A stretch of 47,861 nt of DNA, taken from contig JANQJV010000360.1 in assembly GCA_028281465.1 (NCBI GenBank), forward strand, positions 1 through 47,861, given 5' to 3'. This DNA is from Azospirillaceae bacterium. Lineage in GTDB: Bacteria > Pseudomonadota > Alphaproteobacteria > Azospirillales > Azospirillaceae. Of this stretch, positions 12,112-45,739 are shown one piece after another; the first letter of the stretch is position 1, and every line of letters begins with the position of its first letter. Below the pieces are notes generated by a model, which saw nothing but the letters and a program-made list of their open reading frames with translations, made no database searches and was not told the DNA's origin. A program made the translations under genes and the position numbers.

Positions 12112-12128
12112 GGTGATGTACCATCACC
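12112..12128. promoter_or_regulatory. Palindrome between the divergent oxidoreductase and cysQ genes
   Basis: GGTGATG-TAC-CATCACC, a perfect 7-bp dyad in the 143-base gap between divergent genes. It could be an operator or a small hairpin in the cysQ leader. No regulator can be named. Confidence 0.4.
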
Positions 12129-12176
12129 AAGCCTTTCGGGCACCCCCGAAGCTGCTACCAATCCTGAGGACGATGC

Positions 12177-12956: not shown

Positions 12957-12960
12957 CGGC

Positions 12961-15899: not shown

Positions 15900-15924
15900 C
15901 ATTGGCATCCAGGCCACCGACGGC

Positions 15925-15945
15925 GGGATACGCATGACGTATCCC
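15925..15945. terminator. Palindrome between convergent gluQ and NUDIX genes
   Basis: GGGATACG and CGTATCCC form a perfect 8-bp stem with a 5-base loop, touching the NUDIX stop codon. It has no T tract, so it is either a bidirectional terminator without U-run or another REP-type element. Confidence 0.5.
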
Positions 15946-16794: not shown

Positions 16795-16812
16795 GGTCAC
16801 GCCAGAGTCCGA

Positions 16813-17097: not shown

Positions 17098-17181
17098 ATC
17101 AGGCCTCTCGACGCTGACTCGGATGCATGCGAACGGGTCGGCAGAGAACCGAAAAGTCGTGCGCATTGCAAGCATCGTGAG

Positions 17182-17637
17182 TCACGGCATTGGCCATGGA
17201 AGATGGGCATTGGCGGCGCGGACGCCGGCGCCGGGTCCGGTGTCCTGCACCACCGCGATGCCAGCGGCGCGCAGCATCTCTACGCCGCGGCCGTCGACGA
17301 AGGTTCCGGGTTCTTCCAGGCAGAACACGACGCGGGCGAGGCCGGTCTGGAGGATATGGTGCGTACACGAGGGTTTGCCTGACAAGCGGGTGCTGCAGGG
17401 TTCGAGCGAAGCGTACAGGAGGCAGCCGGACAAGCCGAGACCGGCCCGGTGCGCCTTGTGGATGGCGGTTTCTTCCGCGTGCCACCCGGGGCCGAGCTCC
17501 CGGCTATAGCCGGTGGCCAGCACCGCACCGTCGGGACGGGCCAGCACGCAGCCGACCGAGAAGGCGCCATCGGAGGGCGGGCATAGGGCAGCCAGGGCCA
17601 CCGCCCGGTCGAGCAGCCGGCGATCCCGGCCGGTCAC
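17182..17637 (-). CDS. Cytidine/deoxycytidylate deaminase-family protein (RibD deaminase-like)
   Basis: A 151-residue zinc deaminase. The catalytic H53-A54-E55 and the metal Cys81 and Cys91 (PC-x9-C) match the RibD/CDD fold, with ASLEPC typical of the RibD deaminase half. There is no reductase domain, so it is not a complete RibD. It could deaminate a pyrimidine precursor or an unrelated nucleoside. It starts with GTG 17637, overlapping the upstream stop as GTGA, which implies coupling to the 95-aa gene. Function within this cluster is unknown. Confidence 0.87.
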   Translation of the reverse strand: MTGRDRRLLDRAVALAALCPPSDGAFSVGCVLARPDGAVLATGYSRELGPGWHAEETAIHKAHRAGLGLSGCLLYASLEPCSTRLSGKPSCTHHILQTGLARVVFCLEEPGTFVDGRGVEMLRAAGIAVVQDTGPGAGVRAANAHLPWPMP

Positions 17638-17921
17638 GGCAGACCATGCCGACTGACAGGCACCCGGGTCTCGTCCAATGGATCATCGAGACCATAGGCA
17701 CAGGTGGTGGGGAGACCGTCCGGCCCGAGGTCGTCCCGTTGCGGACCGCCGTTGGCGAAGCGGCGGCCGAGTCGCCAGCATCGCGGCAGGTCGGCCGGCA
17801 GGCGGGCCCGCAAGTGCCGCGCTTGCGTCTCCGCCCAGGCGGCGAAATCCGCGTGGTACAAACCGGCGTCCGACGGATCGACCCGGTTCGCCGGCGCCGC
17901 ACCCGCCACGGCGGGTTCCAT
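17634..17921 (-). CDS. 95-residue protein of unknown function, coupled to tldD
   Basis: Easily missed because a longer shadow frame hides its start. ATG at 17921 overlaps the tldD stop codon (TGATG), and its own TGA overlaps the GTG of the deaminase gene, so it sits exactly in a translationally coupled slot. The protein has a segment GLYHADFAAWAETQARHLRA (about 19-38) that resembles the N-terminal part of DUF29 proteins, but the rest (RRFANGGPQRDD, TTCAYGLDDPLDETR) does not fit that family. It is soluble, with two Cys and no signal peptide. I do not recognise it. Its position between TldD and a deaminase makes it a candidate partner of either. Confidence 0.75.
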   Translation of the reverse strand: MEPAVAGAAPANRVDPSDAGLYHADFAAWAETQARHLRARLPADLPRCWRLGRRFANGGPQRDDLGPDGLPTTCAYGLDDPLDETRVPVSRHGLP

Positions 17922-19354
17922 CACGCGGCGGTGCCGCCGACGGTCAGGCCGTCCAGGCGCAGGGTCGGCTGACCGACGCCGACCGGCACACCCTGGCCTT
18001 CCTTGCCGCAGACGCCGATCCCAGGGTCGAGCGCCATGTCGTTGCCGACCATGGACACGCGGGTGAGCGCATCCGGGCCATTGCCGATCAGCGTGGCGCC
18101 CTTGACCGCCGGACCGAGTTTGCCGTTCTCGATCAGATAGGCTTCGTTGGCGGAGAACACGAACTTGCCCGAGGTGATGTCCACTTGGCCCCCGCCGAAA
18201 TTGACCGCGAACAGACCCCTGTCGACCGACGCGATGATTTCCTCCGGTGCGTGGTTGCCGTTGAGCATGACGGTGTTGGTCATCCGCGGCATGGGGTGGT
18301 GTCCAAAGCTCTGGCGCCGGCCGTTGCCGCTCGGTTTCATGCCCATGAGCCGAGCGTTCATGCGATCTTGCATATAGCCGACCAGAATGCCGTCCTCGAT
18401 CAAAGTCGTGCATTGGGTCGGCGTGCCTTCGTCGTCCACGGTGAGACTGCCGCGCCGATCCGCCAAGGTGCCGTCGTCGACCACCGTGATGCCGGCGGCG
18501 GCCACGCGCTGGCCGAGCAGGCCGGCGAACGCCGAGGTCTTCTTGCGGTTGAAGTCACCCTCCAGGCCGTGGCCGATCGCCTCGTGCAGCAGGATGCCGG
18601 GCCAGCCGGGACCGAGCACCACGGTCATCTCACCCGCCGGAGCCGGCACCGAGTCGAGGTTGACCAGGGCCTGGCGCAGGGCTTGATCGACATGGTGGCG
18701 CCAGGTCTCAGGCTCGAGCAAAAGGTCGTAGCCGATCCGGCCGCCAGAGCCATAGGTGCCGGTTTCCATGCGGTCGCCGGCGCCGACCACGACCGATACG
18801 CTCAGGCGCACCAGGGGCCGCACGTCCGCCACGCGGGTGCCGTCGCCCCGGATGATCTGGATCGCCTGCCAATCCGACGACAAGGACGCACTAACCTGGC
18901 GGACACGTTCATCCCGGCCGCGAGCGTAGGCGTCGATGTCGGTCAACATGGCAACCTTGGTTTCGAATGGCACCGGCAAGACCGGGTTGCCGTCGTCGTA
19001 CAGTCGCCGGTTAGTGCCCGGTGGGGCCTCGCCAAGGGTGCCGGCGTAACCGGCGTGCACGGATTTGACCGTGCTGGCCGCGCGCCGCAGCGCCTCCTCG
19101 GTGATTTCCGCGGCATGGGCATAGCCGATGGCTTCGCCGGCGACCGACCGCAGGCCGAAACCCTGCGCTGTATCGAAGCCGGCGCTGCGCAGGCGGCCAT
19201 CGTCCCACACGAGGGATTCGGTCTGGCCATACTCCAGGTACAGCTCGCCGTCGTCGGCCCCGTGCAAGGCATCGGCCACGATCGATTCCGTGCGGCTGCG
19301 GTCGAGCCCGGCGCGGGTGAAGAACAGGTCGTCGGTGACGGCAAGCGGGGTCAA
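17921..19354 (-). CDS. tldD: Metalloprotease TldD
   Basis: A 477-residue TldD, the metal-binding half of the TldD/TldE (PmbA) peptidase, which degrades unfolded or leader peptides and matures microcin-type peptides. The metal motif HEAIGHGLEGD begins at His257. The C-terminal TldD core is seen in SGKFVFSANEAYLIENGKLG and GPDALTRVSMVGNDMALDPG with the conserved Cys in GVCGKEGQGVPVG. Length is typical. The start is TTG 19354 with GGGAGGG seven bases upstream; the nearby ATG is out of frame. The TldE partner is not in the window and may be elsewhere. It heads a five-gene minus-strand operon. Confidence 0.95.
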   Translation of the reverse strand: MTPLAVTDDLFFTRAGLDRSRTESIVADALHGADDGELYLEYGQTESLVWDDGRLRSAGFDTAQGFGLRSVAGEAIGYAHAAEITEEALRRAASTVKSVHAGYAGTLGEAPPGTNRRLYDDGNPVLPVPFETKVAMLTDIDAYARGRDERVRQVSASLSSDWQAIQIIRGDGTRVADVRPLVRLSVSVVVGAGDRMETGTYGSGGRIGYDLLLEPETWRHHVDQALRQALVNLDSVPAPAGEMTVVLGPGWPGILLHEAIGHGLEGDFNRKKTSAFAGLLGQRVAAAGITVVDDGTLADRRGSLTVDDEGTPTQCTTLIEDGILVGYMQDRMNARLMGMKPSGNGRRQSFGHHPMPRMTNTVMLNGNHAPEEIIASVDRGLFAVNFGGGQVDITSGKFVFSANEAYLIENGKLGPAVKGATLIGNGPDALTRVSMVGNDMALDPGIGVCGKEGQGVPVGVGQPTLRLDGLTVGGTAA

Positions 19355-19465
19355 GGAACATCCCTCCCGGTGGGTCTGTCATGGCACACTGTCACGAGAT
19401 GACGACGCGACGACCGGTCGGCAAGGGGCACGGCCGGCACCCGACGCGCAGAGGGCGCGACCGGA

Positions 19466-19684
19466 ATGGCCGATGTGCGGTTCCCCTTGGCGGAATGCCT
19501 CAACGAGATGTGCCCATTTTCTGGCAAACCGGTGGCCGCCGACAGCCTGACCCAGTTCGAAGGCCGGGTGGTCGGGTTCTGCAACCCCGGTTGTAGGGAC
19601 ACCTTCGCCGCTGATCCCGCGGCGTTTCCCGAGGTCATCGCCGTGTTCCGGGCGGCTGCCTTGGCCGCAACGAACCGTAGCTGA
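19466..19684 (+). CDS. Small YHS/TRASH-like zinc-binding protein
   Basis: A 72-residue cytoplasmic protein with CPFSGKPV (Cys16) and VGFCNPGCRDTF (Cys38 and Cys42), the arrangement seen in small proteins from many alphaproteobacteria that are sometimes mis-annotated as glutathione S-transferase. Three Cys suggest metal binding, perhaps zinc or copper, in the manner of YHS/TRASH domains. It diverges from tldD and precedes the cytochrome oxidase region, but no functional link is shown. The ribosome binding site is weak, so the start is chosen mainly by codon position and the conserved block. Confidence 0.75.
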   Translation: MADVRFPLAECLNEMCPFSGKPVAADSLTQFEGRVVGFCNPGCRDTFAADPAAFPEVIAVFRAAALAATNRS

Positions 19685-20245
19685 TCGTCGTCGGGTGCGC
19701 CGAGGGGGACCGGACCGGCAGCCGCCTGATGGGGGGCACCGCCGACATACCGTCCGCGCCCGCGTCACTGCCGTCACGGTTCTCGGCGTTCGGTGCCGAC
19801 GGTGTCACTTGGGCAGTGTGCTTTGTTGAATCTAAAATCCAAGATGATGATGGTAAGTGATCGCGTATTCACACTTTGAACCGACAGGCGATGCATCGAT
19901 GGTTTTGAAAACGTGGTATGAAATTCGAAAAAACTCGACACTCGTCTTTTCAATTCAGGGCTGGGCTGGGCTTTATCCATCTGCGTCAGAATGTCGCGAC
20001 GATCCATGCGACATTGCAATAACTCCAAATTCCGCAGCAAAAGCCTGAAACAGCTAGCCCTGTCTACCTTGCCAGGCCGCCCGGGTGTCGGCTTGTATCC
20101 GCTCTTGCGTGTCGTTAAGGTCGCGCCGCGTCGCGTTGTCACAGGGAGCACGGCGGACGGCGGATAAGGCGTTGATCGGGGCGGCTCCGGGCCCGGCGCG
20201 GGGCAAGGCCGACGGCGCGCGGCGGACAAGGGACAGGAGAGCACA
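19685..20245. other. Intergenic region upstream of the cytochrome oxidase operon
   Basis: A 561-base gap with an AT-rich part (about 19820-20060) containing several A and T runs. No ORF here has support. It probably contains the cox promoter and leader. The end, from 20100 to 20240, is GC-rich and carries the coxB ribosome binding site (AGGAGA 20235-20240). Confidence 0.5.
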
Positions 20246-21121
20246 GTGGTGAGGATGACCGTGCACAGACTCGGTGCGTGGATCGGGGCTTTTGCTGCGC
20301 TGCTGGTCGGGCTGGTGGCCGGGCCGCAGGTGCTGGCGCAGGGTGTCGTCGGCGAACCCCAGCCCTGGCAGATGGGGCTGCAGGACGGCGTTACACCGGT
20401 TAGCCGGATGATGATCGAATTCCACGATCTGCTTATGGTGATCATCACGCTGATCGTGCTCGTGGTCCTTGGCCTCTTGCTGTACGTCATGGTGCGGTTC
20501 AACGCCAAGGCGAACCCGACGCCGTCCAAGATGACGCACAACACCCTGGTCGAAGTGGTGTGGACGGTGGTGCCGGTGCTGATCCTGATTGTGATCGCCG
20601 TGCCGTCGTTCCGCCTTCTGTACTTCGCCGAGCGGCTGCAGAACGCCGAGATGACCGTCAAGGTGACGGGACGGCAGTGGTATTGGGAATATGACTACCC
20701 GGACCATGGCGGCATCAACCTGATGAGCTTCATGCTGCAAGACGACGAGCTGGAACCTGGCCAACGCCGACTGCTTGAGGTCGACAACCGGTTGGTTCTG
20801 CCGGTCGACACGGACATTCGCATTCTGGTCACGGCCGGTGACGTGTTGCACTCCTTCTATGTGCCCGCGTTCGGCATCAAGATGGATGCGATCCCGGGTC
20901 GGTTGAACGAGACCTGGGTGCGCGTCGAGCAGGAGGGCGTCTATTACGGCCACTGCACAGAATTGTGCGGCGTCGGCCACGCCTACATGCCAGTGGCGGT
21001 CGAGGCCGTTTCGAAGCAGGCCTTCGAGGCCTGGGTCACCGAGACGCAGACAGCGCAGGGCCTTGTCGTGCCGGCGCAAACGGATCAAGACGTGGCCCTG
21101 GCGGGGCAAACGGCACAGTGA
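20246..21121 (+). CDS. coxB: Cytochrome c oxidase subunit II
   Basis: A 291-residue CuA-containing subunit that takes electrons from cytochrome c. It has a signal peptide ending near LAQG, two transmembrane segments (about 63-85 and 104-126), and a periplasmic cupredoxin domain. The CuA ligands are His202, Cys237, Glu239 (backbone), Cys241, His245 and Met248 (GHCTELCGVGHAYMP). GTG 20246 follows AGGAGA by five bases; another GTG and an ATG follow within nine bases. It is the first gene of the operon. An unusual feature is the ~20-residue C-terminal tail after the domain. Subunit family is certain. Confidence 0.96.
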   Translation: MVRMTVHRLGAWIGAFAALLVGLVAGPQVLAQGVVGEPQPWQMGLQDGVTPVSRMMIEFHDLLMVIITLIVLVVLGLLLYVMVRFNAKANPTPSKMTHNTLVEVVWTVVPVLILIVIAVPSFRLLYFAERLQNAEMTVKVTGRQWYWEYDYPDHGGINLMSFMLQDDELEPGQRRLLEVDNRLVLPVDTDIRILVTAGDVLHSFYVPAFGIKMDAIPGRLNETWVRVEQEGVYYGHCTELCGVGHAYMPVAVEAVSKQAFEAWVTETQTAQGLVVPAQTDQDVALAGQTAQ

Positions 21122-21192
21122 CAGTAACGGACGGAATGGGACGGGGCCCAGGCGGCGCACCGCGCGCGCGGCCTTTCGGACAGAGACGGTGA

Positions 21193-22818
<1,626 letters not shown>

Positions 22819-22922
22819 TCGCGTCCGGCCCGGGTCGGGCGTTTCCGGCCGGGGCCGACCATCCCGGCCGGTGCCGTAGGACAAAGACATAATCTTATGA
22901 ATGGAACCGGGTGCCGATTGCC

Positions 22923-23861
22923 ATGACCGACACCACTGTGCAAAGTCCACCCCAGGCCGTTGGCCGGGATGGGCTGCGGAGCGACGCGACGGTGCGGGAT
23001 TTCGTGTTGCTGCTGAAACCCCGCGTGATGTCTCTGGTGGTATTCACCGGCTTCGCTGGTCTGGTGGTGGCACCGGGAAGTTTGCATCCACTTCTGGCGG
23101 CCGTGGCAGTCCTGTGCATCGCCGTCGCTGCCGGTGCCGCTGGCGCCATCAACATGTGGTATGATCGCGACATCGATGCCGTAATGGCGCGGACCTGTCG
23201 GCGGCCAATCCCACAAGGTCGCGTGGCTGCGGGGGATGCGCTTGCCTTCGGGGTCGTGCTCAGCGTGGGGGCCGTCATGGTGATGGGATTGGCGGTCAAC
23301 TGGGCCGCCGCCGCATTGCTTGCGCTCGCCGCGGCGTTCTACGTGTTCGTCTACACCATGTGGCTGAAGCGGCGCACGCCGCACAACATCGTCATAGGCG
23401 GTGCGGCCGGAGCGTTCCCACCCATGATCGGTTGGGTCGCGGTCACCGGTGGTATCGATCTTCCGGCGGTGGTGTTGTTTTTGATCATCTTCATGTGGAC
23501 ACCGCCGCACTTCTGGGCTTTATCCCTGTTCCGTCGCGGCGATTATGAGAAGGCCGGTGTGCCCATGATGCCTGTGGTGGCGGGGACGGCGGAGACCAAG
23601 CGGCAGATGCTCCTGTATACCCTGCTGCTTTGGCCGCTGTGCATGGCGCCGTACGCGTTCGGCTTGGGTGGCCCGGTGTACCTGGCGGTATCGGCGGTGC
23701 TCGGTGGTTGGTTCGTTGTGTGCGCGTTGCGCGTGTTGCGTGGTCAGGGCGAGGCGGCGGCCCGGCGCATGTTCCGGTTTTCCATTCTTTTCCTGTTCGG
23801 CGTGTTCGCCGCCTTGATAGTCGGCGAGTTGGGACGGGCGCTGGTACGGGCGTTGGTTTGA
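22923..23861 (+). CDS. ctaB: Protohaem IX farnesyltransferase (haem O synthase)
   Basis: A 312-residue polytopic prenyltransferase that farnesylates haem b to haem O, needed for the a-type haem of the oxidase. Asp-rich motif N77-x-W-YDRDID (77-85) and LKRRTPHN are characteristic; a second conserved stretch is RRGDYEKAGVPMMPVV. About nine membrane helices are visible. ATG 22923 is chosen; an in-frame GTG at 22911 would add four residues. Located between coxA and the small coxF gene, as in other alphaproteobacteria, so regulated with the operon. Confidence 0.95.
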   Translation: MTDTTVQSPPQAVGRDGLRSDATVRDFVLLLKPRVMSLVVFTGFAGLVVAPGSLHPLLAAVAVLCIAVAAGAAGAINMWYDRDIDAVMARTCRRPIPQGRVAAGDALAFGVVLSVGAVMVMGLAVNWAAAALLALAAAFYVFVYTMWLKRRTPHNIVIGGAAGAFPPMIGWVAVTGGIDLPAVVLFLIIFMWTPPHFWALSLFRRGDYEKAGVPMMPVVAGTAETKRQMLLYTLLLWPLCMAPYAFGLGGPVYLAVSAVLGGWFVVCALRVLRGQGEAAARRMFRFSILFLFGVFAALIVGELGRALVRALV

Positions 23862-23900
23862 GGGAATGGGGTTTGCAAGAATGGGGTGTGAGGGATGGCG

Positions 23901-24074
23901 ATGACGGAGACGCCTGACGGCGGCCGTCCGGGCGGATCGGAGGCACAGGCTCGGCATGAGGGGCTGGAGCGCCACCGCCAGATGCGCGGGCGCAATCTGG
24001 CCGTGGCCGGCGTGTTGATCGGGTTGGTGGTGCTGTTTTATCTGATCACGATCGTACGGATGGGGGCGCACTGA
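23901..24074 (+). CDS. coxF: Small CoxF-like membrane protein of the oxidase operon
   Basis: A 57-residue ORF, below usual length cut-offs. ATG 23901 has GTGAGGG six bases upstream (ATG 23895 would abut it). It is hydrophilic and charged at the N-terminus (EAQARHEGLERHRQMRGR), then has one membrane helix (about 32-52). The stop is one base before the next ATG (ctaG). Small single-span proteins lie at this position, between ctaB and ctaG, in alphaproteobacterial oxidase operons (CoxF in Rhizobiales terminology). Its role is probably assembly; the assignment rests mainly on position and topology. Confidence 0.82.
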   Translation: MTETPDGGRPGGSEAQARHEGLERHRQMRGRNLAVAGVLIGLVVLFYLITIVRMGAH

Positions 24075-24075
24075 C

Positions 24076-24732
24076 ATGGATGCACGCGGCAACCCATCGG
24101 TGCACAGCCGCAACCAGCGCCTTTTGCTGACACTGCTGGGCGTGGTTGTCGGCATGATCGGCCTCTCGTTTGCGTCGGTGCCGCTGTACCAACTATTTTG
24201 TCAAGTCACGGGCTTTGGCGGCACGACGCAGGTTGCCGGCGACCTAGAGGGGATGGTGGCGAGCGAACACCGGATCACGGTGCGCTTCAACGCGGATGTG
24301 AATGGCGGTTTGCCGTGGCGTTTCCGCCCGGAGGTCCGCGAGATCGACGTACGCTTGGGGGAGGGCCGGCTCATCGCTTACCGGGCCCGCAACCAGGCCG
24401 CCCGCCACACCACCGGCACGGCTATCTACAACGTGACACCGTTGAAGGCGGGGCTGTACTTCAACAAGGTACAGTGCTTCTGTTTTGACGAGCAGGGATT
24501 GGTGCCCGGCCAGGAGGCAGATTTCCCAGTTTATTTCTTTGTCGATCCGGCGATGGCGGAAGATCCGGATTTGGCCCACGTCGACACCATCACTCTATCG
24601 TACACATTTTATCCGGCGGCCTCGGCGGCGCTGGAGGAAGCGGTCGAGGCCCTGCCGGTGCCGGCCGAGTCCGCCTCCGCCGTGCGGCCTGCCGCCGTCG
24701 CCCAGACCAAGGAATCGCGAAACAATGGCTGA
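24076..24732 (+). CDS. ctaG: Cytochrome c oxidase assembly protein CtaG/Cox11
   Basis: A 218-residue copper chaperone that delivers CuB to subunit I. An N-terminal membrane segment (about 15-37) is followed by a periplasmic beta domain with the copper Cys pair CFCF (C134 and C136). The conserved FASVPLYQLFCQVTG comes just after the membrane segment. Start ATG 24076 is one base after the CoxF stop. The last 8 bases overlap the start of coxC. The Ala/Glu/Pro-rich C-terminal extension of about 30 residues is not part of the core domain. Confidence 0.95.
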   Translation: MDARGNPSVHSRNQRLLLTLLGVVVGMIGLSFASVPLYQLFCQVTGFGGTTQVAGDLEGMVASEHRITVRFNADVNGGLPWRFRPEVREIDVRLGEGRLIAYRARNQAARHTTGTAIYNVTPLKAGLYFNKVQCFCFDEQGLVPGQEADFPVYFFVDPAMAEDPDLAHVDTITLSYTFYPAASAALEEAVEALPVPAESASAVRPAAVAQTKESRNNG

Positions 24733-25633
24733 CACGCACATTGAAGCCGGCACCACCTACGATTTGAATGCGGGCGGCGCCCAGCCCTATCACTTGCTCA
24801 AACCGAGCCCTTGGCCGATCGTCGGCGCCTTTTCGGGCGGCCTGTTGGCCGTGGGCGTCGTGGTGTTCATGCACTCCGACAGCGCATGGCTGATGGTCGT
24901 CGGTCTGGCCGCGGTGCTCGGCACCATGTGGCTTTGGTGGCGCGACGTGGTGAAGGAATCGGTGGTTGCCAAGGAGCATTCACCAGTCACCAAGATCGGT
25001 CTGCGTTATGGCATGGCCTTGTTCATCGCCTCGGAGGTCATGTTCTTCGTGGCGTTTTTCTGGGCCTTCTTCAATGCCAGTCTGTTCCCGATGGCGGTTG
25101 ACCCCGCCCTCTTCCCCGATGCTTTGCCGGGGGGACCGCTGGAACATGCGGCTAATCCGGATGGTGTGTGGCCGCCGCCGCTGGTGCACACGGTCCCGGC
25201 GTTCGATTTGCCGTTGCTCATGACCCTGATCCTCCTGCTGTCTGGCGTGACGGTCACCTGGGCGCACCATGCCCTGGTCGAAGGCAAGAACCAGGAAGCC
25301 GAACGGGCTCTCGGTCTCTCCGTGCTGCTCGGCGTCCTGTTTCTGGGCTTTCAGGTTTATGAATACGCCCATGCGCATTTCGGGTTCCGGGAAGGCATTT
25401 TCCCGTCGACCTTCTTCATGGCGACCGGCTTCCATGGCTTCCACGTCTTCGTCGGCACCATCTTCCTTGCTGTCTGTTGGTTCCGGACCATGAAGGGACA
25501 CTTTACGCCGGAGAGTCACTTCGGCTTTGAGGCGGCGGCATGGTATTGGCACTTCGTCGACGTCGTCTGGCTATTCCTGTTCGTTGCCATCTATTGGTGG
25601 GGTGCGATCCCGCGCGGCGGCGTTCCACACTGA
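24725..25633 (+). CDS. coxC: Cytochrome c oxidase subunit III
   Basis: A 302-residue subunit III with seven membrane helices, associated with the proton-pumping oxidase core. Typical blocks are LKPSPWPIVGAF, RYGMALFIASEVMFF, YEYAHAHFGFREGIFPSTFF, GFHGFHVFVGTIFL, and the C-terminal WYWHFVDVVWLFLF. The ATG overlaps the end of ctaG. Much longer upstream ORFs in this frame run through ctaG and are shadows. The DUF983 gene follows 11 bases downstream. Confidence 0.96.
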   Translation: MADTHIEAGTTYDLNAGGAQPYHLLKPSPWPIVGAFSGGLLAVGVVVFMHSDSAWLMVVGLAAVLGTMWLWWRDVVKESVVAKEHSPVTKIGLRYGMALFIASEVMFFVAFFWAFFNASLFPMAVDPALFPDALPGGPLEHAANPDGVWPPPLVHTVPAFDLPLLMTLILLLSGVTVTWAHHALVEGKNQEAERALGLSVLLGVLFLGFQVYEYAHAHFGFREGIFPSTFFMATGFHGFHVFVGTIFLAVCWFRTMKGHFTPESHFGFEAAAWYWHFVDVVWLFLFVAIYWWGAIPRGGVPH

Positions 25634-25644
25634 CCAGGGGTACC

Positions 25645-26010
25645 ATGACCGAGCCATCTCTGTTTTCGACCCTTCACAAGGCTTGGCGCTGCGTGTGCCC
25701 ACGTTGCGCGCAGGGGCATCTGTTCCAAGGCTTTTTGACTGTGGTGGACCGGTGTGCGCATTGCCATTTACCACTGTCGCGTAACGACAGCGGCGACGGC
25801 CCTGCCGTGTTCCTGACGTTCATCTTGGGTACCCTGCTGGTCCCGCCGGCCCTGTGGCTGTCATTCCAGGTGAGTTGGCCGCTCTGGCTGCACACCGTGG
25901 TGTGGGGTCTGGTCATTCTGGGCTTGACCTTGGGCATGCTGCGTCCGGCCAAGGCCCTGGTGGTGGCGCTACAGTTCAACCACCGGCCGGAGGAGTACGA
26001 CGAGTCGTAG
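25645..26010 (+). CDS. DUF983 family membrane protein
   Basis: A 121-residue protein with two N-terminal CxxC motifs (Cys18/21 with an extra Cys16, and Cys37/40) that look like a zinc ribbon or metal site, and two membrane helices (about 55-75 and 82-104). It is the DUF983 family, which sits at the end of cox operons in alphaproteobacteria. An oxidase-assembly role is inferred from context only. ATG 25645 follows CCAGGGG. A SURF1 gene, often the next member, is absent; the operon ends at the palindrome downstream. Confidence 0.9.
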   Translation: MTEPSLFSTLHKAWRCVCPRCAQGHLFQGFLTVVDRCAHCHLPLSRNDSGDGPAVFLTFILGTLLVPPALWLSFQVSWPLWLHTVVWGLVILGLTLGMLRPAKALVVALQFNHRPEEYDES

Positions 26011-26056
26011 GCGCCGGTCTTCTTGACTGCGCCAGGCGCGACCGACGCCAAACGGT

Positions 26057-26090
26057 GCCGGATAGGATGCGCCAGCGCATCCTATCCGGC
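26057..26090. terminator. Strong 16-bp palindrome between convergent genes
   Basis: GCCGGATAGGATGCGC and its exact reverse complement are separated by CA, giving an almost loop-less perfect dyad. It lies between the end of the cox operon and the end of the convergent DUF2189 gene. The centre (GGATGCGC..GCGCATCC) repeats the REP core seen elsewhere in this window. No U-run follows on either strand. Confidence 0.7.
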
Positions 26091-26097
26091 CTTCGGT

Positions 26098-26886
26098 TCA
26101 GGCAACGATGTGGCGGTATAGATGCCATGTGGCGTGGCCGAGGATTGGAACCACAACGGCAAGACCGACGAAGGCTGGGATCGAGCCGGCCAGCAGCGTC
26201 CCGGCGACGATCAGGCCCCAGACCGCCATGATCTGAGGATTGGCCGCTACTGCCCTGAGCGATGTCGCAATGGCGGTGACGGCATCCACGTCGCGATCCA
26301 GCACCAAGGGAAATGACACCACGGAGATCGCCAGCACCACCGCTGCGAAGACGAAGCCGGTAATGTTGCCGATGATCAGAAGTTGAATGCCGCTCGCGCT
26401 GGAGAACACCAAGTCTAGCAACGCTCCGACGCTGCGCGGTTGCGCCGAACCGAGCGTGGCAGCATAAATCGCTTGTGCCGCCACGATCCAGGCGAGGAAC
26501 AAGCCAAGCAAAATCATGCCAAGCACGAGGATGGACCGCAACCTCCGACCGCGCACCGCGGACAGAGCATCGTACCAGGTTGCGGGCAGACCCTGTTCAC
26601 GCCGCCGGCTGATCTCATAAAATGCCAGGGCAGCGATCGGACCAACCAGGGCAAACCCGGACGCCAGCGGGTACACAAGCTGCAGCAGGCCGCCACCGGA
26701 AAACACGATGGCGGCGATCAGGCCGACCACCGGGTAGATGATCGCCAGGAACACCAGATGGCTTGGTTTGCTGAGAAAATCATCCAATCCCTTACGCAGG
26801 GCCGCCGTCACGTCGTCGAGGCCGATGGTGCGGATTTCGACGTCGCGTCTGACCGGATTGCCGGTCGCCAGGCTTGTCTCGCTCAT
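26098..26886 (-). CDS. DUF2189 family multi-pass membrane protein
   Basis: A 262-residue inner-membrane protein with about six hydrophobic segments. The blocks KGLDDFLSKPSHLVFLAIIYPVVG, ASGFALVGPIAALAFYEISRRRE and the late SFPLVLDRDVDA with SLRAVAANP.IMAVWG are typical of DUF2189. Cytoplasmic N-terminus about 40 residues. Function unknown. ATG 26886 has GGGAGG at good spacing. It is a single-gene unit converging on the cox operon. Confidence 0.9.
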   Translation of the reverse strand: MSETSLATGNPVRRDVEIRTIGLDDVTAALRKGLDDFLSKPSHLVFLAIIYPVVGLIAAIVFSGGGLLQLVYPLASGFALVGPIAALAFYEISRRREQGLPATWYDALSAVRGRRLRSILVLGMILLGLFLAWIVAAQAIYAATLGSAQPRSVGALLDLVFSSASGIQLLIIGNITGFVFAAVVLAISVVSFPLVLDRDVDAVTAIATSLRAVAANPQIMAVWGLIVAGTLLAGSIPAFVGLAVVVPILGHATWHLYRHIVA

Positions 26887-27634
26887 GCTGCTACCTCCCT
26901 AGGGATGGGGTCGCGCCGTCCCGATTCGGCAGGGTACTGAGCGTTCCTGTGCGGCTTTTCCCGCGCCGACAATCGGTCCGCAGGCTTCGGGCAACCGGTC
27001 ACGGAGGCTGAGTTTTCCCCAAGTCGCACCAACCAAGCGGAGGGGCGAACGGGTCGTGACCAACCTTGAGCGTGCCGATCGACCGAATCAGCCGTAACCT
27101 AATGATTTTTGGCAGCCCACACCAATCACTGGTATTTGATGGGCCGGTGTGTCTCAAGCGCCTTGCGCCCACATTGGGCCGCGGAAAAAGTTCTAGCTAT
27201 TTGATTTTCAAAAAATATCGGTGCGGTACCGGAGGGTGCGGTGCGAGCGTTCCCCCGGTCGCCGCCTCGCCGGCTGCCACCACGCTTGGCGGTTCCGCCT
27301 TCTGCTCCGTGGCTGGACGGGGGGAATGCGCCGTTCGCCGCGGTTGCCGGCGAGGCCTGGTCTTGCAATCGTCTCGACCTAAGACTCTGATTGGTTGGAA
27401 ATCATCCGGATTTCCTCAGAAACACCGAGCATCTGAGTGGTCATGTCCAGGTGCTTGGCCAGGTCGCGTTGTCGATGCCGCCGTTTCCCGTGTCGTGCCG
27501 ACTGCGGCAACAGTGTGCTGATCATGGCGCCGTTATGGCCAGACTGGGCTGCCCATCTTGGTGGTTCACAATCCGCAAGGGACTCTCTGGTCCAACGATC
27601 CCTTTTCTATCCGGTTGTTGAGACGATTTGTTTC
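26887..27634. other. Intergenic region with no supported gene
   Basis: About 750 bases. An ORF at 27066-27521 on the plus strand and one at 27126-27368 on the minus strand both look non-coding (Cys, Ser and Gly-rich, without ribosome binding sites). Part of the region (27240-27360) repeats GCCGGCGAGGC and GGGGGAAxGC in inverted form but not in collinear order. Nothing functional is recognised apart from the probable DUF2189 promoter at the left end. Confidence 0.5.
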
Positions 27635-39782: not shown

Positions 39783-40176
39783 GCCATAGTATTCGGGCGG
39801 GTCGACAAGCCGTCAACGTCTTCGCTGCCGTGGCACCCAACTGGGGTTCTTCGCGATGGGCCATCATTCCCTGTAGCATGCCCAATCTTGTTCGGACGCT
39901 CGTCTCATAGGGAGCAACCGGTCATGCGAGGAGCGCGATGACGGAGATGCCCGTGACCTCTGCTGCCAATCATCCGGTCGAGGCGGCCTGGTGCTGCTGC
40001 GACCGCCGGCCGACGCCGGCAAGCGCAATCGGTTTTCTGGGTCGCTCTGTGTACTGTGAGCCTTTGTTGTGGTTCGCCCGGTTTAGATTTGGGGGGAGGG
40101 CCGCTCGAACGGTCGCGCGGCTGGCGTCGGGCTGCACGGAATCGCCCCCAACCACGCCCCAAGATTGGAGGTTCCC
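39783..40176. other. Intergenic region upstream of the small membrane gene
   Basis: 394 bases. An ORF at 39938-40186 with AGGAG before its ATG overlaps the next start by 10 bases, but its Cys/Arg/Pro-rich composition is unlike a protein and it ends in the translated ribosome binding site region. It is left out. GGAGG (about 40166-40170) serves the next gene. Confidence 0.45.
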
Positions 40177-40428
40177 ATGGCGATAACAATCGCTTTATGC
40201 ATGGTGATGGTGATACCCGCTGTCGGCCTTGGTTACCTTTTGTCGCTATTGTTGGAGTTTGCCGAGTATCGAGCTGACGCATTTCCGGCAATCATGGCGG
40301 CGATCTGGGGCAGTTGGGCAGCTTTGAGTAGCCGTGTGGTTGCCAACGGCCGGACCAGGACGGTTTTAATAGTCACTGGCAATTTACTCATGGCATTTGC
40401 TTTAGTCAGTATCCTCGGAACCTTGTGA
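40177..40428 (+). CDS. Small membrane protein of unknown function
   Basis: An 83-residue hydrophobic protein with two or three membrane helices (about 2-27, 36-52 and 62-82) and a short polar loop (SSRVVANGRTRT). ATG 40177 has GGAGG six bases upstream, and base composition is less GC-rich at the third position than neighbours. No family was recognised. It sits between dprA and the decayed REC-EAL gene and does not form an operon with either. Confidence 0.65.
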   Translation: MAITIALCMVMVIPAVGLGYLLSLLLEFAEYRADAFPAIMAAIWGSWAALSSRVVANGRTRTVLIVTGNLLMAFALVSILGTL

Positions 40429-40499: not shown

Positions 40500-41430
40500 A
40501 CTTAAACCGAAACAGCCAACGATGAGAATCCACCGTGGAAGTACCAACCGGAACCAGCGTCTTCTTGCCGGGTCAGAAATACTTCCAATGTCACGGGGGC
40601 CATCGAAATGATCTCGACCGATTTCGCTCAGGCTGTGGTCCACGACGGTCGTATCGGCCTCGCCGGCCGTCAACGACATGTCCATGCCTTCGCCGAGGCC
40701 GACGGTGGCACGGGCGATGACAAAGGCGTCCCGATCGGTGTCGAGGGAGGTGACGATCGGTGGATGTTTCCTTTGGAGAACGGCAGGCGATGCTGCTCTC
40801 CGTGCGATGGGGAGCCGATGCCGAAGTCGTTCAGTGTTGAGGCGACGCCGTGGATGCGCAACGGCATCACCATCGCTGCGGGGACCGACAGTGGCGACAT
40901 GGCTTTCGATTCGATGATCCCCAAGATCAGTTGCGAAGTCGGCAAACCGGCCGTCGTCGCCGCGTCAAGGGCGCTTGACAAAGTCGGGGAACGAGACGGT
41001 GACGGCCCACCGTGAGACCGGAGGCGACGGACCTGCCTGGAACAAGGACATGGGGATGTCCGGCAAGAGCGGACCGCGGTCAGGGTGGAACCTGCGCGCC
41101 AATGTCTCGGCTGCCCATCACCTTGCCATCAGGTCAGACGGATTGTCGGTTGATCGTCTGGCACCACCTGGACCGACGCGCCGGCTCTCTTGGCCTGGTC
41201 TTCAGAGCGTTGAAACCCGACTGCCTGCCGTTTCTCCATCTCCGACCTGAGTGCTTTGGGTTGAACGGTTTGCGCACCAGTGTGACCATGCGAAGGCCGA
41301 AGGACTCCCCAACCCGTACGATGGCTTTTATGGTCCAATCAGCGGTTCCAGTGACGAGCAGTACGGGCGCTCTGCAGCGGTGCAACTGACGACGGAAACC
41401 AGCCAAGCGGCTTAAGGTTTGTCTGCTTGG
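40500..41430 (-). pseudogene. Decayed REC-EAL (c-di-GMP phosphodiesterase response regulator)
   Basis: No single ORF shows it, but successive minus-strand frames spell out one gene. Receiver C-terminus: LHRCRAPVLLVTGTADW and FGLRMVTLVRKPF (about 41265-41390). EAL start: QPTIRLT, then DGKVMG in another frame, then AETLARRFHPDRGPLLPD in a third (ETL signature at 41100-41108). Middle: GLPTSQLILGIIES, LRIHGV and NDFGIGSPS in place of DDFGTG, ending HRLPFSKGNIHRS (about 40755-40975). End: GMDMSLTAGEADTTVV and SEIGRDHFDGP (about 40590-40685). At least four frameshifts are needed, the N-terminal 70 or so receiver residues are missing, and the catalytic DDFG is altered. It was divergently oriented next to the FIST-kinase pair and probably was its output. 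Confidence 0.87.
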
Positions 41431-41451
41431 CGGTGACGGGAGGAGGCGTGA

Positions 41452-42657
41452 ATGGGGATGCGCGCGGCGTCGAGCCATGGCGTTGGGGCGGCTTCTGTCG
41501 AGGCTGCCGAGGCTGCCGCTGCCGCCCTGCGAGGTCGGTTGCCAGGCGGGCCCGATCTCCTGTTTGCTTATGCCGACGGTGACACCGATCTGGCGGCTGT
41601 GGGGCGTGTTCTGGCCGCAGCCTTCCCCGGCACGCCGTTCGTGGGGGGCACCAGTTGCCGCGGTGTGATGACTCAAGAAGGCTTCCACGGTGGGACTGGT
41701 CCTCGATCGGTCGGCCTATTCGGTCTGGTCGATCCGGCTGGGGCGTATGGGACGGCGCTCCTGCCGCTGGACGGGGATCCGCGCCGGGCGGCGGCGGCCG
41801 CCATCGACCTGGCGTTGGAGCGCTCCGGGCGGCCTTGGGAAGCCCCCAACCTGGTGTGGATTTGTGGCGCCCCGGGATTTGAAGAGACCGTTCTGGCTGG
41901 TATTGCCGACGTCGTTGGGCCGAACATTCCCGTGTTCGGTGGCAGCTCGGCCGACAACCGGGTTGCCGGCGACTGGCACCAGTTCGATCAATCGGGATGC
42001 TTAGCCGATGGCTTAGCGGTCGCGGTGCTGTTTGCCGGTGGTCGGCTTGGCACGGCGTTCCAGGGTGGTTATGAGCCGACCGGTGTGTGCGGCCAGGTCA
42101 CGACGGCCGGTGGCCGGATTTTGACACAGATCGACGGCCGATCGGCCGCTACGGTGTACGACTCCTGGACTGACGGGCTGGTGACCGGTGCCGGCGGCGC
42201 CGGTGCCTCGATCTTGGCGCGCAGTACCTGGACGCCGCTGGGGCGCGTGGTCGGCGATGTGGAGGGGGTGCCGGTCTTTCTGCTGATTCACCCCTCGCGG
42301 GTGACCGAAGACGGCACCGGCTTGTCGCTGTTCGCCGAGTTACCGGCCGGTGAAACGGTGCATCTGATGCGCGGCACCGAATCCAGTCTGGTAAGCCGCA
42401 TTGGCCGGGTTGCCCAGGAAGCCCTGGACACGTCCGATTTGGCACCAGACGGGGTTGTGGGTGCGCTCGCCATTTACTGCGGCGGGTGCATGATGGCGGT
42501 CGAACCGCGCATGGAGGATGTGGTGGCTGCTGTCACGGCGGTGCTGCCCGGCATTCCGTTCCTGGGTGCCTTTACCTTCGGGGAGCAGGGGCGGAGCGTG
42601 GCACGAGTCAACCAGCACGGCAATTTGATGATTTCCGTCGTGGTGTTCGGTGCCTGA
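41452..42657 (+). CDS. FIST-domain sensor protein (NosP-like)
   Basis: A 401-residue cytoplasmic protein with FIST N (about 25-230) and FIST C (about 240-395) domains. The family blocks GTPFVGGTSCRGVM, PVFGGSSADN, and the C-terminal IPFLGAFTFGEQG with NLMISVVVFG are visible. In several bacteria such proteins (NosP) bind haem and NO and control a neighbouring hybrid kinase; the haem-ligand His cannot be assigned here. ATG 41452 follows AGGAGG. Its end overlaps the start of the kinase gene by eight bases, so sensor and kinase are made together. The FIST domain is a separate protein rather than fused to the kinase. NO specificity is inference. Confidence 0.9.
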   Translation: MGMRAASSHGVGAASVEAAEAAAAALRGRLPGGPDLLFAYADGDTDLAAVGRVLAAAFPGTPFVGGTSCRGVMTQEGFHGGTGPRSVGLFGLVDPAGAYGTALLPLDGDPRRAAAAAIDLALERSGRPWEAPNLVWICGAPGFEETVLAGIADVVGPNIPVFGGSSADNRVAGDWHQFDQSGCLADGLAVAVLFAGGRLGTAFQGGYEPTGVCGQVTTAGGRILTQIDGRSAATVYDSWTDGLVTGAGGAGASILARSTWTPLGRVVGDVEGVPVFLLIHPSRVTEDGTGLSLFAELPAGETVHLMRGTESSLVSRIGRVAQEALDTSDLAPDGVVGALAIYCGGCMMAVEPRMEDVVAAVTAVLPGIPFLGAFTFGEQGRSVARVNQHGNLMISVVVFGA

Positions 42658-45600
42658 GACCGGGAGCCGAAGGTTGGGCGCGTCGATCGCCGGTCCCCTA
42701 TCCGCGGCGCAGTCGGTACCGGACCGACCGGCGTCGGCGACCGGTGATCCCGACGCGGAGCGGGACGCGTTGCCAACCAGTACCGAAGACCTGCGCGAGG
42801 TGATGCTGGCACTCAAACGGGCGCGCGATGAGGCGGATCGGCGGGCGCTCGAGACCGAGGTGATGCTGGAGATTCTAGAAACGGTCCTGCGCCCCCTGTC
42901 GCCAGCGCGCCTGCTTGTCCGCATCTTGCGCCTTCTGCGACGGGTGATCCCGTTTCAAAGTGCGGTTGTGCTGCATCAGATGCCGGGGGGTGGGCTGACC
43001 GCCGTGTTTTCCAGTCGGTCCGGTTTGATCGGCGGACGGTGGCCACAGGGGCGGTTGTTTGACCGCGTTCTGAGTGGTCAAGTGGTCAATGTTCTCGCAT
43101 TGGGCCGGGCGCCCGATTGGCGCGACGGACCGGCTGCCGCAGCGCAGCTGCCCGGGGCCGGCCTGCTGTTGCCGCTGTATGGCGATGTGAGCGGCATCCT
43201 CGTTCTGGCCTCCGCTGTGGTCGGTGGGTTCGGCGAGGAAATACAACAAACCGGAGTCCGCTTTGCGGTGTTGGCGCGCCAGGTCCAGGCCAATCTGGAG
43301 GTCCGCGATCTTCGGGCCCGGCATGAAACCCTGGCGCGGGAGAAAGAGGCGGCCGAGCTGGCTCGGGCCGAGAGCGACCGCCGGCAGCAAACAGTGGAAA
43401 CCATCCTGGGCGCGATCCCGGTCGGAGTCTATCTGCGCGATCCCCGAGGTCGGTTCCGCGCGGCAAACCCGAGTGCTGCACGGCTGCTCGGGCTCGGGTC
43501 CAGCACCTTGGTGGGGCTGAGCACCGAGACCGTGTTCCACGGCACACTCGCACCGCTGCGAGAAGAGGAGGGGGGCGGACCATCCAGGGTGGCGTCAGCG
43601 ACCGATACGGTGCAGGAGTTGGAGGTGCCGTCGGCGGAGGGCGTCCGCGTCATTGGCGTGAGCAAATCGCGGGTGTCGCTTTTTGGTGAGGAGGTGGTTG
43701 TCGGCACGGTCCAGGATCTCACCCCTTATCGGGAGGCGGAACGGGCGATCACCGAGGCGAAGGAAGCGGCAGAGGCGGCCAACCGAGCGAAATCGGAATT
43801 CATCGCCACCATGAGCCACGAGATCCGCACGCCGCTTAACGGCATCCTGGGCATGGCCCAGGCCATGCTGGCATCGCCGCAATGGCTGGCGCCAGCGCAT
43901 GCGGATGCCTTTAAAGTGATCCAGTCCTCCGGCGACTTGTTGCTCGGTTTGATCGACAATGTGCTGAATATCGCGAAGATCGAGGCAGGCAAGCTGGAGA
44001 TTGTACCGACCGAAACCGACCTGGGAACGCTGGTGCACGACACGACCTTGCTGTGGGCGGAACGGGCGCGGGCCCATAGCTTGGACCTTTTTCGCATCAT
44101 GGATGGATCGATCGCTGCACGCATCCGTGTCGACGGGTTGCGCTTGCGGCAAATTCTGAACAATCTCATCGGCAACGCAATTAAATTCACTGAATTCGGC
44201 TTCGTGCTCATTCGGGTTTCCATGCAACGCACCGAAGCCGGTTCAGCGACCTTGACGCTGCAGATCACGGACACGGGGCCCGGTATCCCAGAGGACAAGC
44301 AACCGCTGTTGTTTCGTCGCTTTATTCAGGTGGGCGACCGGTCACGGCGCAGCCAGCAAGGGACCGGCCTCGGTCTCGCGATCTGTTCCGACCTGGTGAA
44401 GCTGATGGGGGGGCAGATTACGGTGGACAGTCGTCCCGGACATGGGGCTGCGTTCACCGTGTCCTTGCCGGTCGGCGTGGTTGATGCGCGCCCACGATTT
44501 CGGCCGACCGCGGCCAGTCTGCGCGTTGTTCCCTGGCATGCCAAAGGCGGACACGACCCCCTGATAGGGGTTCTGGTAGACCATTTCGCTTCCATGGGTG
44601 GAACGGTGCTGCCGGCGAACCGGGCGGCAACGGATGTCCACGGTGTCATTTGCCATGCCGATGATTTGGCCGAAGCGCTGCCGGCGATCGCCGGCGGGGA
44701 TGGACCAATAGCGGCATTCGTGTTGGGGCACGTCCCGGCATCGTTCGATCCGACCCTCAAACTGGTATCGTTGTTGCGGCCGCTCGGGCCGCTTTCGGTT
44801 TATGATGCTTTGGACCGGGCATTCGGGCTGAAGAGCGCGGAGTTCTACACAGATGTCACCGATGCCACCGGCCCGCACGACATAGCATTGCCGCAGGGGC
44901 GGGTCTTGGTGGCCGAGGACAACATCGTCAATCAGCAGGTTGTCCGGTCCCTTTTGAACGGTCCAGGGTTGGAGCTCCGCATCGTCGCGAATGGTGCGCT
45001 GGCTGTCTCGGCGGCTTTGTCCTGGCATCCGGATGCCGTTTTAATGGATGTCCACATGCCGGAGCTGGATGGCATGGAGGCGGCGCGTCAGCTTCGGGCG
45101 CAGGGGTTTGCCAGGCCGATCATCGCGTTCACGGCCAATATCCTGCCGGAGGCTGTGGCGCAATGTCGCGATTCTGGCATGGAGTACTTTCTGCGTAAGC
45201 CGGTGGAGAGGACTGAGTTGCTGCAGACCCTGCGCAGTGCTTTGGCTCGCACGACCAGTCCGGTCTTGGGCCGGACTGCGGACCGGGCTGCAGCGCCGGA
45301 GCCACCGCATCTGGCATTGCCGGAAGCTCCAAATTCGGCGCCGACGCGCGCGGATGGCCAGACCCGCCGCATCCTCGACCGAACCACGTTGTCCGAGCTG
45401 CGCCAAGTGGTTGGTGAGCAGAATGCCCTGAGGATCGTCGGTTCGTTTCTCGGTGACGGTGGCCGACGCATCGATGCCGTCCTGGCCGCCATCGATGCGG
45501 GCGACGCCGGTGAAGCGGCGTCACAGTGCCATTCCATCAAGTCCACGGCGGCCACGGTCGGGGCGGCAGCTTTGTCGGCCCTGGCGGCGTACATGGAAGC

Positions 45601-45739
45601 GGTCGGGCGCAGCGGTGATATGGCGGCTTTGCAGGCGTGTGCCGGCGAGTTGCGCACCGTGTTTGCCCGAACCCGCGCCGCACTCACCTTCTTGTCGTCC
45701 GGCACCAAAGGTAGGCGGACTGGGTCAGCTGAGGGCTGA
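42650..45739 (+). CDS. Hybrid histidine kinase (NahK-like)
   Basis: A 1029-residue soluble kinase, starting with GTG 42650 inside the end of the FIST gene. Order: coiled coil (about 45-75), GAF-like domain (85-205), coiled coil, PAS (about 250-360, GVYLRDPRGRFRAANPSAARL), HisKA with His390 (SHEIRTPLNG), HATPase (about 495-610, NLIGNAIKFTE, DTGPGIPE, GTGLGLAI), a degenerate receiver (about 640-745) without phospho-acceptor Asp, a true receiver (about 748-865; Asp800 in MDVHMPELDG), and an Hpt domain with His961 (CHSIKS). It has no membrane helix. The partner sensor is the FIST protein. The Hpt would pass phosphate to a separate response regulator; the adjacent REC-EAL gene is dead. Confidence 0.94.
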   Translation: MPETGSRRLGASIAGPLSAAQSVPDRPASATGDPDAERDALPTSTEDLREVMLALKRARDEADRRALETEVMLEILETVLRPLSPARLLVRILRLLRRVIPFQSAVVLHQMPGGGLTAVFSSRSGLIGGRWPQGRLFDRVLSGQVVNVLALGRAPDWRDGPAAAAQLPGAGLLLPLYGDVSGILVLASAVVGGFGEEIQQTGVRFAVLARQVQANLEVRDLRARHETLAREKEAAELARAESDRRQQTVETILGAIPVGVYLRDPRGRFRAANPSAARLLGLGSSTLVGLSTETVFHGTLAPLREEEGGGPSRVASATDTVQELEVPSAEGVRVIGVSKSRVSLFGEEVVVGTVQDLTPYREAERAITEAKEAAEAANRAKSEFIATMSHEIRTPLNGILGMAQAMLASPQWLAPAHADAFKVIQSSGDLLLGLIDNVLNIAKIEAGKLEIVPTETDLGTLVHDTTLLWAERARAHSLDLFRIMDGSIAARIRVDGLRLRQILNNLIGNAIKFTEFGFVLIRVSMQRTEAGSATLTLQITDTGPGIPEDKQPLLFRRFIQVGDRSRRSQQGTGLGLAICSDLVKLMGGQITVDSRPGHGAAFTVSLPVGVVDARPRFRPTAASLRVVPWHAKGGHDPLIGVLVDHFASMGGTVLPANRAATDVHGVICHADDLAEALPAIAGGDGPIAAFVLGHVPASFDPTLKLVSLLRPLGPLSVYDALDRAFGLKSAEFYTDVTDATGPHDIALPQGRVLVAEDNIVNQQVVRSLLNGPGLELRIVANGALAVSAALSWHPDAVLMDVHMPELDGMEAARQLRAQGFARPIIAFTANILPEAVAQCRDSGMEYFLRKPVERTELLQTLRSALARTTSPVLGRTADRAAAPEPPHLALPEAPNSAPTRADGQTRRILDRTTLSELRQVVGEQNALRIVGSFLGDGGRRIDAVLAAIDAGDAGEAASQCHSIKSTAATVGAAALSALAAYMEAVGRSGDMAALQACAGELRTVFARTRAALTFLSSGTKGRRTGSAEG

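Follow-up and report, generated by a model that had tools for sequence, protein, structure and literature searches.

What becomes of a sensor–kinase pair when the output gene beside it has decayed? The question is raised by the window analysed here, a stretch of 47,861 nucleotides (contig JANQJV010000360.1) from an Azospirillaceae genome, in which an intact FIST gene and an intact hybrid kinase gene adjoin the remains of a REC-EAL gene. Since decay of the output gene has spared FIST, kinase and Hpt, the relay is probably still in use with its output switched; specifically, we put at roughly one half the probability of the reading that we consider most likely, namely that the phosphorelay has lost a dedicated c-di-GMP phosphodiesterase and would now end on another response regulator. 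The window may be regarded as a natural experiment, sensor, kinase and Hpt having been kept after the neighbouring output gene died, and the locus is useful for the study of target change in two-component systems.

A REC-EAL pseudogene beside an intact FIST–kinase pair

The FIST gene (41452–42657, plus strand) is a single open frame of 401 residues, and its product is a FIST sensor protein, with both domains above their Pfam gathering scores: FIST N (PF08495) at 90.2 bits versus 23.2, and FIST_C (PF10442) at 81 bits versus 28.5. The kinase gene (42650–45739, plus strand), which shares its first 8 bases with the end of the FIST gene, encodes 1029 residues in the order GAF-PAS-HisKA-HATPase-REC-Hpt. 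Pfam identifies the PAS domain (residues 255–358; 43412–43723; PF08448, 31.9 bits), the HisKA and HATPase_c core (43787–44473; PF00512, PF02518), the receiver (44903–45232; PF00072, 73.2 bits) and the Hpt domain (45434–45679; PF01627, 39.9 bits). The HisKA histidine, ATPase boxes, receiver aspartate and Hpt histidine of a hybrid-kinase phosphorelay are all present, and H390 (codon at 43817), D800 (45047) and H961 (45530) each lie inside an intact motif. The picture given in the earlier note, of an intact FIST gene overlapping a hybrid kinase with receiver and Hpt, is thus borne out.

The same note had recognised a REC-EAL gene by joining three minus-strand frames, and this too was upheld: among 121 REC-EAL proteins used as tblastn queries, the best give collinear blocks in three minus-strand frames. 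The best chain, drawn from 13 queries, reaches 124.5 bits on the minus strand versus 20.4 on the plus strand, while none of 500 dinucleotide shuffles exceeds 58.1 bits; chance or antisense frames were therefore dropped as an explanation. By frame-tolerant alignment and chained tblastn, the recognisable gene extends over 40599–41379 (minus strand), from the second half of the receiver to near the end of the EAL domain. It comprises a receiver remnant (41257–41379, equivalent to residues 75–115 of the intact REC-EAL protein of locus L008, described below) and three EAL blocks, at 41025–41111 (found with queries P0136, P0146 and P0153), 40754–40951 and 40599–40751, all located by tblastn and the first and last also by alignment. 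On profile search, one of five minus-strand pieces (40673–41128, which includes the middle block) matches EAL (PF00563, profile positions 98–176) with E = 5e-5 and 23.2 bits, under the curated 31.3, and the other four match no profile on their own.

Frameshift-tolerant alignment with five relatives places five frame breaks in the remnant with every relative, with 28–33 residues deleted internally and the first 52–80 residues unmatched. The start of the receiver has been lost, as had been proposed: about 75 codons are gone, the phospho-acceptor aspartate among them, and this residue, counted back from the first matched codon, would land within the FIST gene. The DDFG motif, in contrast, had been described as lost but is present as NDFG in the middle block, and the EAL motif reads ETL in the first. 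With five frame breaks, no receiver start and both altered motifs, the gene does not encode a functional REC-EAL protein and is a pseudogene; its intact form is predicted to have been a c-di-GMP-degrading enzyme. No terminator emerged from a promoter and terminator scan, whose single promoter-like site is distant from the start of FIST, and an Rfam scan found nothing.

The genome is a draft of 426 contigs, and the gene might be intact, with frame breaks introduced by faulty assembly or sequencing. However, the internal deletions, the missing codons and the altered catalytic motifs are not frame errors, and the nearby genes for DprA, FIST, kinase and PPK2 each read as a single frame; from the deletions and motif changes, we set error aside as very unlikely, to the point of being hardly credible.

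The closest named relative of the locus, in an Acetobacteraceae MAG (L008; JAIYDD010000171.1), clusters intact genes for REC-EAL, a FIST protein 57% identical to that of the window, and a GAFx-Hpt kinase with the same domains. There REC-EAL is unbroken and shares a strand with FIST, whereas in the window it is broken and on the opposite strand, so that the history of the remnant is not a simple one. A separate receiver gene lies within 2.5 kb of the related Hpt kinase in 7/7 cases, and at non-Hpt related loci such a gene is nearby in 19 and absent in 39. At five of the seven Hpt loci the receiver gene has the same position and orientation as the remnant, and this, together with a kinase architecture that matches L008, argues that the remnant once served the pair rather than having arrived as a fragment of some unrelated REC-EAL gene. 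The remnant is also nearer to L008-like REC-EAL proteins (n = 43, median 86.7 bits) than to others (n = 74, 45.1 bits), as groups whose members are not independent of one another. An unrelated piece would be in keeping with the orientation opposite to L008, the missing start and the poor match to P0176, a REC-EAL protein taken as FIST-linked as its contig equals in size that of a FIST match (36.6 bits); we nevertheless regard that origin as unlikely.

The FIST protein and its relation to NosP

The earlier note had read the FIST protein as NosP-like and the pair as fitting a NosP/NahK layout. The layout stands insofar as FIST, kinase and c-di-GMP regulator are arranged as in published NosP systems, but the family assignments do not. 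On the NCBIfam NosP model (NF041558, cut-off 450) the FIST protein reaches 21.4 bits, whereas two other FIST proteins from Azospirillaceae, used as positive controls, score 492.6 (L006) and 486.6 bits (L007), and in a small tree these passing proteins are separated from the window clade by a long branch with full support. The kinase likewise reaches 110.2 bits on NahK/ErcS' and 158.5 on near_NosP_CTERM (NF041831 and NF041832, curated cut-offs 1500 and 400). By model score and tree the protein falls outside the NosP-type families, and NosP identity was dropped; since neither protein reaches the cut-offs, family membership gives no indication of nitric oxide sensing. The FIST N and FIST_C domains would suit a haem sensor for nitric oxide of the NosP type, as would the resemblance in layout to NosP systems, as far as the available parts of the sources describe them (PMC8846402, PMC12570481), and yet the model score and the branch make such a sensor improbable. 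A literature search for NosP with Fe-S yielded nothing on point.

Instead, judged by its sequence, the window FIST protein is a member of a clade other than NosP that carries two extra conserved cysteines. C69 (codon at 41656), C343 (42478) and C346 (42487; all plus strand) are kept in 63/64, 64/64 and 64/64 aligned FIST proteins (the 64 aligned among 120 matches listed); five distant FIST proteins all retain C343, and none has C69 or C346. The clade is defined in this analysis by these three cysteines plus a GAFx domain in the gene after FIST, and the window locus has both. Because the cysteines are conserved, sensing by thiol, redox or metal chemistry is kept alive as a reading and may occur at these residues. 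At E ≤ 1e-40, the window-type FIST occurs in 1/82 Azospirillaceae genomes, the present one only, which places the system outside any stable family core.

In fold, the predicted FIST model comes closest to the FIST domain of human FBXO22 (TM-score about 0.5), a ubiquitin-ligase subunit with 11% sequence identity to the window protein. FBXO22 is described, in the accessible portion of the source, as having a reactive cysteine, Cys326, next to Glu362 (PMC13316043); these lie 36 residues apart in sequence, and the spacing may be compared with the 35 residues between C343 and E378 of the window protein. When solved structures were searched with the FIST profile, the matches were weak and chance-like only, mostly nanobodies.

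The GAF-type domain of the kinase

Ligand binding and signal hand-on by FIST proteins were described as little understood in a 2022 review, in the part of it at hand (PMC8846402), and a GAF-type domain that follows the FIST clade from kinases to cyclases is a concrete candidate docking partner. This domain, GAFx (residues 40–242 of the kinase; 42767–43375, plus strand), is supported by profile match (178.1 bits in the window kinase), comparison of loci and a structure model; Pfam makes no GAF call on the window copy, and the best fold matches of its predicted structure are GAF folds. GAFx occurs in the gene after FIST at 76/80 related loci, where it stands before kinases, cyclases or cyclase-phosphodiesterases. 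The four misses comprise three contig ends and one FIST gene (L073) followed by no GAFx gene, and kinases beside other FIST proteins have no GAFx (0/4). A bolder reading, to which we give somewhat less than even odds, is that the three-cysteine clade serves as a plug-in sensor whose dedicated partner, a GAF-type domain, precedes kinases, diguanylate cyclases and c-di-GMP phosphodiesterases alike, and that in this genome both module and Hpt relay survived the loss of their phosphodiesterase and have come to signal to a different response regulator.

Of 385 genomes in a class sample, 14 match GAFx at E ≤ 1e-8, and six of these reach 142 bits. FIST adjoins GAFx in two of these six; the other four, from one family (f43), have no FIST gene in the 5.8–6.5 kb fetched, and their GAFx lies behind a further N-terminal stretch. 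A strict tie of GAFx to FIST was dropped on this account, and the four genomes also count against the favoured reading of the locus. Two weaker matches (G401, G109) have no FIST nearby. A literature search for FIST with GAF found nothing on point.

Fate of the phosphorelay

In the proposed mechanism, the FIST protein would sense its signal at the conserved cysteines and act on the kinase's GAF-type domain, and phosphoryl groups would pass from H390 to D800 to H961 and on to a separate receiver; the relay would have stayed in use, with a replaced output, while the neighbouring REC-EAL gene decayed. With that gene ruined, the pair would have to signal to another target. The earlier note had allowed for either rewiring or orphaning, and that way of framing the decayed gene beside an intact pair is supported. 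The orphan alternative holds that the output decayed first and that FIST and kinase fell out of use too recently to have broken. In its favour, no replacement output is known, the window has no intact receiver gene besides the kinase's own receiver domain, and the FIST type is confined to one of the 82 genomes of its family. However, the Hpt and phospho-residues are intact, and the 4290 bases of FIST and kinase are free of frame breaks where 27.5 would be expected at the pseudogene's rate, a constant-rate estimate resting on one short pseudogene; at that rate, disuse could have lasted at most about 11% of the pseudogene's decay time. The choice therefore leans to rewiring, with a wholly orphaned system a lesser possibility. 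A FIST gene whose use was lost only recently may be idle yet unbroken.

A published system indicates that the partner of a FIST kinase need not adjoin it, since Pseudomonas aeruginosa NahK, a kinase co-cistronic with the FIST sensor NosP, hands phosphate to the separate protein HptB, according to the accessible part of the source (PMC11784011). NosP is described there as an NO-sensitive haem protein, whereas the window proteins score far under the NosP and NahK cut-offs. The NosP/NosK/NosR system of Burkholderia pseudomallei and the NosP/NahK/NarR system of Legionella pneumophila each encode a FIST sensor together with two partners, a histidine kinase and a receiver protein whose output domain is of the c-di-GMP type, as set out in the available parts of the reports (PMC12570481, PMC8846402); the window FIST differs from both in failing the NosP model. 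In B. pseudomallei, the same excerpt reports NosK as having no recognised sensory domain and the HD-GYP domain of NosR as degenerate in motif (PMC12570481), whereas the window kinase combines PAS, receiver and Hpt with a GAF-type domain, and the output gene beside it is disrupted in its DNA as well as in its motifs.

The best intact REC-EAL gene of the genome, on contig C184, is a candidate replacement output, but one placed beside kinases of its own, which speaks against rewiring to it. At 73.2 bits and rank 69 of 121, its product is not the favoured nearest relative of the remnant, although it outscores the FIST-linked P0176. It shares its domain order, as do the relatives of the pseudogene, with PvrR-type REC-EAL proteins (NCBIfam NF052596), and at 252.7 bits it lies under that model's cut-off of 580. 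Six contigs are apparently common to the listed FIST and the listed REC-EAL matches, as judged by equal contig size, and a class-wide search with the L008 REC-EAL protein (385 genomes, E ≤ 1e-80) returned six matches at 39–45% identity.

An intact FIST–kinase pair beside a REC-EAL pseudogene

The window is its contig end to end, within a 6.33 Mb draft genome. As the earlier note claimed, an intact FIST gene (41452–42657, plus strand; 401 residues; FIST N 90.2 bits, FIST_C 81 bits) overlaps by 8 bases the gene for a 1029-residue hybrid kinase, in which PAS, HisKA, HATPase, receiver and Hpt domains were found. The motifs surrounding the kinase phospho-residues H390, D800 and H961 are intact.

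The claim of a decayed REC-EAL gene on the minus strand also held. Scanned singly, one of five minus-strand pieces (40673–41128) matched EAL, under the curated cut-off (E = 5e-5), and the remaining four gave no match. A translated search with intact REC-EAL proteins as queries recovered collinear blocks, some of them missed by individual queries: the second half of the receiver (41379–41257) and three EAL blocks (41111–41025, 40951–40754 and 40754–40599), all on the minus strand. The top chained score was 124.5 bits on this strand versus 20.4 bits on the plus strand (13/121 queries), and at most 58.1 bits in 500 dinucleotide shuffles. In frame-tolerant alignments with five relatives, every one gave five frame breaks, 28–33 residues were deleted inside the remnant, and the relatives' first 52–80 residues were unmatched. 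Specifically, the remnant starts at residue 75 of the REC-EAL protein of L008, an Acetobacteraceae MAG locus, and therefore the receiver start and the phospho-Asp, whose position we presume from receiver motifs, are gone. The motif loss proposed previously thus stands for the receiver start and fails for DDFG, which is present as NDFG; EAL has become ETL. This is a real pseudogene adjoining an intact FIST–kinase pair, a variant of an already known FIST–kinase–regulator arrangement. Its codon-position G+C (0.61, 0.50, 0.76 for the pooled blocks) is still like the kinase gene's (0.70, 0.50, 0.74), so an ancient origin of the decay seems unlikely. Nearby, a small plus-strand open frame (40165–40428, 87 aa) has a membrane-like look and, in Pfam, only a match at chance level (DUF2568, E = 0.26).

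A FIST clade distinct from NosP, with a GAF-type partner

The FIST protein had been proposed to be of NosP type, an identity we reject: it scored 21.4 bits on the NCBIfam model (cut-off 450) and the L008 FIST 24.5 bits, whereas two of nine further FISTs, both from the window's bacterial family, passed (492.6 and 486.6 bits). Those below were four window-clade members (25.9–57.4 bits), two more from the family (55.3 and 73.1 bits) and the second FIST of the window's genome, which gave no match. The latter (contig C313, 18478–19044; 382 aa) has no kinase gene within the 9.5 kb examined. The two NosP proteins (L006, L007) each adjoin a receiver-bearing kinase lacking the GAF-type domain described below. 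Among 82 genomes of the family, 65 have at least a weak FIST match, and only the window's genome has a window-clade FIST at E <= 1e-40.

Of the 120 relatives listed, 64 were aligned: C343 and C346 occur in every one of these and C69 in 63/64; five distant FISTs all retain C343 and none has C69 or C346. The predicted model (pLDDT 96.7) matched FBXO22 best (TM-score about 0.5), followed by cyclic amide hydrolases. In FBXO22, Glu362 lies beside a reactive cysteine, Cys326 (PMC13316043). That spacing is 36 residues, compared with 35 between C343 and the conserved E378, and the two pairs may mark the same site. For sensing, the favoured prediction is that the cysteines take part in thiol, redox or metal chemistry.

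A named-genome scan with the window FIST alone confirmed no relative; a second scan, with an alignment of relatives as query, confirmed 249, and the 80 best loci were retained. In 76 of these 80, the gene that follows FIST encodes a domain (GAFx) with homology to residues ~28–238 of the window kinase, a count that is partly circular since the profile was iterated on the same loci; the single-sequence search alone found 62 ORFs, four counted as copies of the window kinase. What follows GAFx in the loci that have it is a kinase (receivers and Hpt being present in some and absent in others), GGDEF or GGDEF-EAL. Three of the four loci without GAFx are on contigs that stop <300 bases from FIST; the true exception, L073 (7812–9149), has an upstream kinase-like ORF on the opposite strand. 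Pfam assigned GAF_2 to 43/57 aligned members and no domain to the window's own GAFx, whose predicted model (pLDDT 93.1) matched GAF-containing structures best. GAFx is absent from kinases adjoining four other FISTs of the family (two NosP by score), and within the window's genome only the window kinase matches strongly (167.7 bits; next 30.2). Strict exclusivity to FIST neighbourhoods is contradicted by the class sample, where 4 of the 6 genomes with strong matches (>=142 bits; 385 genomes) had no adjoining FIST. In these four, all from one bacterial family, the kinases (L137–L140) carry GAFx behind an extra ~120–160-residue stretch with no FIST nearby; the stretch might take over the sensor role of FIST. 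A description of this FIST clade together with its GAF-type partner was not found in the open-licence literature searched.

Receiver genes of related Hpt loci

Hpt was recognised in the kinases of 7 of the best 80 loci (six under other search settings; full independence does not apply to the seven). In all seven, a gene for a separate receiver lies no more than 2.5 kb away: EAL (L008), GGDEF-EAL (L020), OmpR-type (L042 and L045 by Pfam, and probably L065, which has the length and place of L042) or NtrC-type (L058, L076). With c-di-GMP enzymes making up only 2/7, output type is not fixed. The other 70 loci with a GAFx gene in this comparison comprise 19 with a receiver neighbour, 39 with complete flanks and none, and 12 with cut flanks (7/0 versus 19/39, Fisher p = 9e-4); some of the 19 neighbours are receiver-bearing kinases, which works against the contrast. 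The receiver gene is upstream of FIST in 6/7 Hpt loci and divergent in five of these, which is also how the remnant is placed and oriented.

L008, the closest of the best 80 loci, encodes on one strand REC-EAL (6545–7765), FIST (7935–9131) and a kinase (9196–12195) with all the window kinase's domains, Hpt included. In addition, six contig sizes (14575, 107498, 13953, 2319, 3795 and 2472) are common to the 120 FIST and 120 REC-EAL matches listed, which would point to linkage; of five whole REC-EALs from these contigs, four scored 84.0–115.5 bits against the remnant and one 36.6. With three truncated proteins excluded and the proteins not mutually independent, the median was 86.7 bits for 43 L008-like REC-EALs (P0121–P0165) versus 45.1 for 74 others (P0166–P0240). 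The remnant is oriented opposite to the L008 gene, and the FIST gene start occupies the place expected for its first codons; its history therefore includes a deletion or rearrangement.

A pair proposed to be still in use, with a changed output

The remnant has five breaks in about 780 bases, a rate that predicts 27.5 for FIST plus kinase (4290 bases), where none was found; on this count, and assuming a constant rate, the pair would have been out of use for no more than about 11% of the time over which the remnant has decayed. Since Hpt is intact and no receiver gene adjoins, the simplest reading is that the relay's target has changed. NahK of P. aeruginosa passes phosphate to HptB, a separate protein (PMC11784011). 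HptB is not known to be encoded next door to NahK, and the case shows that the signalling partner of a FIST kinase can be encoded elsewhere.

The best REC-EAL of the genome, whole and located among its own kinases (contig C184, 14848–16029), scored 73.2 bits against the remnant. At E <= 1e-60 no match to it came from any other family genome (82 in all, with up to 21 candidates scored in each). In this rarity it resembles the window FIST, which is weak evidence for it as a candidate output of the pair. In its region (10000–27000), the intact REC-EAL is followed by kinases; the PvrR model gave 252.7 bits (cut-off 580). Further EAL-type matches with internal stop codons occur on contigs C15 (17062–17823) and C247 (11714–12523) of the same genome, and are perhaps other decayed c-di-GMP genes.
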